Source: Nanobdellati archaeon
Lineage (GTDB): Archaea; Nanobdellota; Nanobdellia; UBA10117
Assembly (NCBI GenBank): GCA_016204275.1
Contig: JACQKZ010000007.1
Location: 1 to 46,173 of the forward strand
Length of the DNA: 46,173 nt
Direction of reading: 5' to 3'
Shown: positions 1,624-19,117 of the stretch, one piece after another
Layout of the letters: each line of letters opens with the position of its first letter
Position numbering within the stretch: position 1 is the first letter of the stretch
Notes under the pieces: model-generated
Seen by the model: only the letters and a program-made list of their open reading frames with translations
Databases searched by the model: none
Told to the model about the DNA's origin: nothing
Made by a program: the position numbers and the translations under genes

Positions 1624-1715
1624 TTCAATTTTAATGTTAAGTAGTTTTTTAAAGTATGCTTTTTAAATCTATCCTGTGCCGGCGTGGGACAATCTGGTAC
1701 TCCGCCCGCCTTGAG

Positions 1716-1819
1716 TCGGCAGCTTTTCTTTCTTGAGAAGAAAGAAACGCTCCCGGGCATCTAAAGAAAGAACCAGTGGCATCTACGATGCCACAAACTT
1801 TACTTGCCCGCAGCATGGC
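1716..1819 (+). other. tRNA intron 1 (104 nt, position 37/38)
   Basis: Lies between G37 and A38; contains hairpins TTTCTTTCTT-GAG-AAGAAAGAAA (1725-1747) and GTGGCATC-TAC-GATGCCAC (1776-1794); BHB core CUUG/CAUG pairs at 3 of 4 positions. Confidence 0.75.
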
Positions 1820-1851
1820 AGCGGGTTCCCGCAAGGGTTTCTCGGTTCAAA

Positions 1852-1904
1852 GACACAACCGAATTGCGATTCGGCTGTGCCACGCCTCTTCGAGGCTTTG
1901 GAAA
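1852..1904 (+). other. tRNA intron 2 (53 nt, T-loop, position 59/60)
   Basis: Removal restores TTCAAAT; core helix UUCA (1846-1849)/UGGA (1899-1902) stacked on the T-stem, with bulges AA|G and AA|U; two internal hairpins. Confidence 0.82.
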
Positions 1905-1968
1905 TCCGAGCGCCGGCGTTTTACACATACGATATATAGTCTGGCCTATCGAAAGGTTTATATACTAG

Positions 1969-17641: not shown

Positions 17642-19117
17642 ATGATTAGGCTACCAGAAAAAAAACCGGAACTCAAGCAAATAAGCGAAGTAGTCTGGGA
17701 AATTTCACCGGACTACAAGAAGGACGAGCCGAAGATGCTCGTGCCAGCCCGCATTTACGCAACCAAAAAACTGATGGAGCAGATGGACATGGGCATATTC
17801 GAGCAGATAAGCAACGTGGCCTGCCTGCCAGGGATACAGAAAGCTGCGATGGCGATGCCGGATGCGCACTGGGGCTATGGCTTTCCAGTCGGCGGTGTCG
17901 CTGCATTTGACACAGAAACAGGAATTATTTCTCCCGGAGGAATCGGTTACGACATTAATTGCGGGATGCGCCTGATACGAACAGACATGACGTGGGATGA
18001 CATCAAAGACAAATTAAAACCATTAGTTGATACTTTATTCAAATTAGTTCCCGCAGGCGTTGGCGGGCACGGGACTGTTAAACTCACGCCGCAGCAGCAC
18101 AAGGAAGTCATGGTTGATGGCGCAAAGTGGTGCGTGAAAAATAATTATGGCTGGCAAGAGGATATCGAGCGAATCGAAGACCTTGGCGCGATCGAGGGCG
18201 CAGACCCCGCAAAAGTTTCTGAAAGTGCGGTCAAGCGCGGTGCAGCCGGATTGGGAACGCTCGGCTCAGGCAATCATTATCTCGAAATCCAAGTTGTGAA
18301 AAAAGAAAATATTTACGACGAAAAACTTGCGAAGAGCCTAGGCATCTTCCCGAATCAGGTTTGCATAATGGTTCACTGCGGCTCGCGTGGTTTCGGCCAC
18401 CAGATTTGCACCGATTATGTCGGCAATTTCAAGCCGAAGATGCCGGGCTGGGGCCTAAAGACGCGGGACTTCGAGCTGGCCTGCGCACCGTTCCAGTCAA
18501 AAGAGGCACAAGATTATCTTGCTGCGATGAGATGTGCCGCAAATTACGCGTTCGCAAACAGGCAGCTGATAATGCACCGCATCCGCGAAGGCTTCTCAAA
18601 GATTTTCAACCAAGATGCAGAAAAGCTCGGGATGAATTTGATTTATGATGTCGCGCACAACATCGCAAAAGTTGAGAAACATAAGATTGACGGCAAAACA
18701 AAAGAAGTCGTGATGCACCGAAAGGGCGCAACACGCGCGTTCGGCCCAAACAGAAGGGAAACACCGAAGATTTACAAAGACACAGGCCAGCCAGTCATCG
18801 TCGGCGGCTCGATGGAAACCGGCTCGTTCCTCTGCGTCGGCACAGACCACGCAGAGCTCGAAACCTTCGGCAGCACGATGCACGGCTCTGGCAGGACGAT
18901 GTCACGCTCTGCGGCGATAAAACAATTCCAGGGCAAAAAACTTTACGATGACATGCTCAAGCGCGGCATCTATGTCAAGTCAGTTTCGTGGGAAGGCCTG
19001 GCAGAAGAGGCCGGCCTCGCATATAAGGACATAAACCAAGTTGTTGACACAATGGAGATTGCGGATGTGTCCAAGAAGGTGTGCAGGTTGATTCCAGTGG
19101 GGAATGTGAAGGGATAA
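17642..19117 (+). CDS. rtcB: tRNA-splicing ligase RtcB
   Basis: AMPDAHWGYGFPVGGVAAFD, GGIGYDINCGMRLI, LGSGNHYLEIQ, MVHCGSRGFGHQ, YDVAHNIAKVEKH, MHRKGATRAFGP, STMHGSGRTMSR. Confidence 0.97.
   Translation: MIRLPEKKPELKQISEVVWEISPDYKKDEPKMLVPARIYATKKLMEQMDMGIFEQISNVACLPGIQKAAMAMPDAHWGYGFPVGGVAAFDTETGIISPGGIGYDINCGMRLIRTDMTWDDIKDKLKPLVDTLFKLVPAGVGGHGTVKLTPQQHKEVMVDGAKWCVKNNYGWQEDIERIEDLGAIEGADPAKVSESAVKRGAAGLGTLGSGNHYLEIQVVKKENIYDEKLAKSLGIFPNQVCIMVHCGSRGFGHQICTDYVGNFKPKMPGWGLKTRDFELACAPFQSKEAQDYLAAMRCAANYAFANRQLIMHRIREGFSKIFNQDAEKLGMNLIYDVAHNIAKVEKHKIDGKTKEVVMHRKGATRAFGPNRRETPKIYKDTGQPVIVGGSMETGSFLCVGTDHAELETFGSTMHGSGRTMSRSAAIKQFQGKKLYDDMLKRGIYVKSVSWEGLAEEAGLAYKDINQVVDTMEIADVSKKVCRLIPVGNVKG

Follow-up and report, generated by a model that had tools for sequence, protein, structure and literature searches.

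A 46,173-nt stretch of DNA from a DPANN archaeon (Nanoarchaeota/Woesearchaeota group), referred to here as the window, very probably carries a functional tRNA-Ser(UGA) gene interrupted by two introns, which would be processed by the endonuclease EndA and the ligase RtcB, and both of which belong to intron families spread among the tRNA genes of this lineage (Table 1). The gene itself falls in an already known class, that of bulge-helix-bulge (BHB) tRNA introns. When the exons are joined they form an 84-nt class II tRNA, called by ARAGORN as tRNA-Ser(tga) with a score of 120.5. Removing intron 2 alone gives a canonical 37/38-intron call, and no tRNA is called by ARAGORN when intron 1 alone, or neither intron, is removed. 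As expected for a gene with two introns, ARAGORN and Rfam found no tRNA in the raw window.

The original prediction, made from the letters of the sequence, had proposed the anticodon, the two intron positions and their boundaries. All of them proved right, both in the ARAGORN calls after intron removal and in an unbiased search in which every BHB-like candidate intron was removed in turn and the result scored for a tRNA. The best solution of this search had exactly the predicted boundaries, with scores of 110.7 when the anticodon intron was kept and 120.5 when both introns were removed. The 302 other window segments and the 150 dinucleotide shuffles used as controls all stayed below 106, where the target scores 110.7, and the two-intron removal procedure gave no tRNA call on 120 random segments. 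Direct reading of the gene shows U8, A15/U48, G18G19, the T-loop UUCAAAU, G73 and a variable arm CCC-GCAA-GGG, in agreement with the class II structure, the A15-U48 pair, G18G19 and the discriminator G that had been foreseen. The portion TTTTTAAATCT of the upstream TATA-like element is also present in a relative of the same genus (G002). A group I intron was rejected, as the window has no Rfam match to one and the inserts, of 53 and 104 nt, lack the length for one; weak opposite-strand Rfam matches (wcaG, COG2827) scored below gathering and were set aside as chance.

Table 1. Features of the window that bear on the interrupted tRNA gene and its processing.
Feature	Position	Strand	Basis and remarks
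TATA-like AT-rich element TTTTTAAAT	1660..1668	+	Read from sequence; directly 5' of the tRNA gene; putative function
Exon 1, tRNA-Ser(UGA) positions 1-37	1678..1715	+	ARAGORN, BHB search; identical in G002
Intron 1, 104 nt, canonical site 37/38	1716..1819	+	Member of a ~100-nt multi-copy family (model R1)
Exon 2, positions 38-59: variable arm, 5' half of T-stem, 5' part of T-loop	1820..1851	+	
Intron 2, 53 nt, T-loop site 59/60	1852..1904	+	Folds as two hairpins; other tRNAs carry near-identical copies
Exon 3, positions 60-73, discriminator G73	1905..1918	+	ARAGORN, BHB search; identical in G002
RtcB tRNA-splicing ligase gene	17642..19117	+	PF01139, E 1e-168; expected ligase for the exon halves

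Both introns fold much better than shuffled sequences (z of -3.8 for intron 1 and -3.3 for intron 2). At the anticodon intron 7 of 8 BHB pairs are present in the host and all 8 in G002, the core accounting for 3/4 and 4/4 pairs, respectively. At the T-loop intron all 8 of the core and outer pairs checked are present, and the BHB-like fold originally drawn there is right, with T-stem CUCGG/CCGAG, a core of UUCA/UGGA and, on the 3' side, the bulge AA|U. It needs one refinement at the 5' bulge AA|G, whose exon AA pairs with intron UU in the predicted minimum-energy fold, leaving only the 3' bulge; the 5' site there ends a 6-bp helix adjoining a multiloop. Because of this pairing the T-loop intron is better regarded as a relaxed, bulge-helix-loop-like site than as a strict BHB. 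Reviews state that EndAs of the (alpha-beta)2 and epsilon2 types cleave relaxed sites efficiently (PMC6379350), and 59/60 is already among the listed archaeal tRNA intron positions (PMC4090602).

The T-loop intron belongs to a small family of nearly identical sequences. Judged by EndA, the closest named genomes to the host (G000) are DPANN archaeon NC_groundwater_169 (G002), Nanoarchaeota archaeon UBA10117 (G005, another genus) and Woesearchaeota AlinenSediments bin-1632 (G004). Copies of intron 2 occupy the same 59/60 site in tRNA-Ser(GGA) of the host (no differences) and of G002 (two differences), in tRNA-Ile(UAU) of G002 (one difference) and in tRNA-Pro(GGG) of G005 (identical, 53/53); a further copy in G002 shows 85% identity. 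The identity spans the T-loop and the intron and ends in the T-stems, which differ between the tRNAs. With the EndA gene as a yardstick (~82% identity between G000 and G005), the probability of 53/53 identity by neutral descent is ~3e-5 by our own arithmetic, so that the match calls for recent spread, for homogenisation or for constraint. Neither intron matched any of the viral contigs searched, and thus no viral carrier was found. The part of the BHB core that the exons supply at the T-loop site (UUCA/GA) hardly varies between tRNAs, which would make this site an easy target: to be excised from any tRNA, an intron there would have to bring no more than a fitting 3' end.

Constraint could take the form of purifying selection on a function of the intron, for example as a guide or a stable circular RNA. 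Besides the perfect match between the host tRNA-Ser and the G005 tRNA-Pro, this explanation would account for the covariation in the variant copies, where two hairpin pairs have changed on both sides. Yet a search of 382 genomes of the phylum found intron 2 in only three, all within the host's family, and the orthologous T-loop site of tRNA-Ser(GGA) in another genome, G001, holds an unrelated 12-nt intron, which points to turnover at this site and means that the intron 2 sequence is not required there. We therefore consider selection unlikely as the source of the near-identity. Homogenisation could operate if the introns were not mobile and the T-loop segment had been copied by gene conversion, or by tRNA gene duplication followed by identity change. 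Such copying would suit an intron that always lies at one site, between flanks (TTCAAA...TCC) common to all tRNAs, but it fits poorly with host tRNAs of different identity that diverge right outside the T-loop. The family of intron 1 also speaks against it, being found in three different loops and, in one case, within a protein gene, a distribution that tRNA gene conversion cannot explain; as a whole, this alternative is improbable, and recent movement of intron copies appears to be the better account.

The intron 1 family is larger. Its members are ~100 nt long and share a conserved core, CGGCAGC..CUUUCUUU..AAAGAAAG..GCUCCCGGGCAUCUAAAG, and their hairpin arms covary (five pairs with double changes). 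A covariance model matches 17 sequences in G000, 22 in G001, 18 in G002 and 23 in G005, counts which include a few opposite-strand reads of a palindromic arm and correspond to ~15-20 copies per genome; G003 and G006 give one or two matches each, and G004, from the same family as the host, gives none. Nearly all of the copies examined lie within tRNA genes: at 37/38 in those for Ser, Lys, Asn, Cys, Gly, Trp, Asp and others, at 59/60 in Ile(UAU) and Thr(UGU) of the host, Glu(CUC) of G005 and Glu(UUC) of G001, and also in D-loops. The copy in a protein gene is found inside the elp3 coding region of the host (G000:C23:24963-25060; L323 860-2473), in frame and with no stop codons. A different segment lies at this position in G001, G002 and G005, and none in G003, G004, G010 and G012. 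Several weak in-frame BHB options can be drawn for the elp3 insert, which is also open for translation, and it may be either spliced or translated. Two copies in G005 (G005:C34:35138-35241, L349, and G005:C11:2301-2398, L351) have no surrounding tRNA, the first with a similar ~35-bp sequence on both flanks. After removal of another copy, in the host (G000:C26:42189-42291, L303), ARAGORN reports a tRNA-Sec(tca) of uncertain identity.

The tRNA-Ser(UGA) gene is conserved as a working gene would be. All 84 exon positions and all 53 positions of intron 2 are identical in G002, while intron 1 has diverged to ~85% identity, one hairpin having changed in a compensatory way from GGC/GCC to GGG/CCC; the EndA genes of the two genomes are 88% identical. 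A second, intact tRNA-Ser(UGA), which the original prediction had named as the sign of a decayed gene, was not found in the 68%-complete host assembly with either the Rfam tRNA model or the gene itself as query. That we are dealing with a decayed pseudogene carrying insertions, the real tRNA-Ser(UGA) lying in the third of the genome that the assembly lacks, is very hard to sustain: the incomplete assembly and the blindness of ARAGORN and Rfam to the gene as it stands speak for it, but the identity elements are intact, the exons are fully conserved in G002 alongside compensatory changes in the intron, and most other tRNAs of the host genome share the interrupted architecture. The standard tRNA model sees 3, 5, 6 and 8 tRNAs in the four intron-rich genomes, the fewest among genomes of comparable completeness, against 20-46 in most relatives; it misses most of the tRNAs of the intron-rich genomes. 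Archaeal tRNA introns appear to have spread widely in this DPANN branch, and we found no description of such a spread in DPANN relatives in the literature searched.

The host encodes both EndA, in a gene outside the window, and RtcB. On the interpretation we favour, the tRNA-Ser(UGA) transcript would carry both introns, each a probable copy of a family spread among tRNA genes of the lineage; EndA would cut at the bulges, and RtcB would join the exons. One EndA gene each was found in the host and its relatives, of the alpha type and with two domains (PF02778 and PF01974). No beta subunit turned up when the host's family (assemblies 68-88% complete) was searched with a profile, and the same search found two EndA genes in each of two control genomes of the class (G025 and G037). 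Owing to this incompleteness a beta subunit, like a second tRNA-Ser(UGA), could be missing from any one of the assemblies compared. G005 also shows part of a second EndA at the edge of a contig; it is similar to the EndA of other class members and may stem from contamination. Just downstream of the EndA gene, the host (G000:C29:51791-51847) and G005 (G005:C11:7945-7983) each have a short additional match to the C-terminal end of the protein, as if the 3' end of the gene had been partly duplicated. A first search of the genome contigs for a QPRTase-like protein gave no match.

The type of EndA had been singled out beforehand as of interest, on the view that a T-loop intron generally requires an endonuclease of broad specificity. 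A partial answer is that the enzyme proves to be a single catalytic-subunit gene with a lysine-containing loop. With one two-domain gene of 234 aa, no beta subunit found and no three-unit fusion, neither an (alpha-beta)2 nor a three-unit epsilon2 enzyme describes it. The four intron-rich genomes share a lineage-specific, lysine-containing loop of 14 residues, FGEIFGQQQGVKETRIEF, which aligns to the place of the Crenarchaea-specific loop in Sulfolobus and Pyrobaculum EndA; elsewhere in the order the loop is 8-10 residues long, and in most of the class 7. A structure model of the G002 enzyme (97% identical to that of the host), of good confidence at pLDDT 79, resembles the EndAs of M. jannaschii, S. 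tokodaii and A. pernix (1a79, 2cv8, 3p1z). It is plausible that the host-lineage EndA has broad specificity, and a single-subunit enzyme with such an expanded loop would probably tolerate relaxed sites. Loop length alone was not borne out as the explanation of intron load, because three genomes with short loops (G024, G043 and G053) also have few model-visible tRNAs (9-11); the tie between the expanded loop and intron load, drawn from sequence comparison within one lineage, is for that reason suggestive.

BHB tRNA introns and intron transposition in Thermoproteales were already known; what is new here is the lineage involved, an enzyme of alpha type only and the number of copies. In Crenarchaeota and N. 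equitans, archaeal BHB introns occur at non-canonical positions, 59/60 included, and some tRNAs have two or three of them (PMC4090602). The introns described here use the same positions and a BHB or relaxed motif, and EndA/RtcB processing is expected, but published cases are mostly from Thermoproteota and our host is a Woesearchaeota/Nanoarchaeota-like DPANN archaeon. As with the transposed introns of Thermoproteales, near-identical introns reside in unrelated tRNA isoacceptors, although on another archaeal branch and with a ~100-nt family that reaches ~15-20 copies per genome, enters D-loops and, once, a protein-coding gene. In the Asgard Atabeyarchaeia and Freyarchaeia, introns are given for 92-95% of tRNA genes (PMC11291895); most tRNA genes are interrupted in both cases, many by several introns at non-canonical sites, and the host belongs to a different phylum. 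Broad-specificity EndAs have the CSL loop in the (alpha-beta)2 enzyme of Aeropyrum and the ASL loop in the epsilon2 enzyme of ARMAN-2 (PMC6379350, PMC12397907). In the host EndA an expanded loop with a lysine aligns to that place in the catalytic subunit, but the enzyme is of the alpha type only, neither a beta subunit nor a three-unit fusion having been found, and its loop sequence, GEIFGQQQGVKETR, is unrelated.

We can tentatively imagine that this DPANN lineage, separately from crenarchaea and ARMAN, turned an alpha-only EndA into a broad-specificity enzyme through a small insertion in a loop, and so opened its tRNA genes, and even one protein gene, to a burst of BHB introns moving between loci and genera; such a scenario is possible, but doubtful. 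Whether a loop can confer broad specificity on an alpha-only EndA could be tested naturally in this lineage, and intron mobility is directly testable on the very recent, near-identical copies that sit at known target sites in close genomes. Two further arrangements were seen among the interrupted tRNA genes. A tRNA-Glu(UUC) with three introns, in the D-loop, anticodon loop and T-loop, is present in the host (L050 1110-1480) and in G001 (L066 180-520). In G010, downstream of a tRNA-Ser with a T-loop intron (L076 60-420), the end of the 3' exon, GAAAGTCCTGGCGCCGGCGC, occurs a second time.
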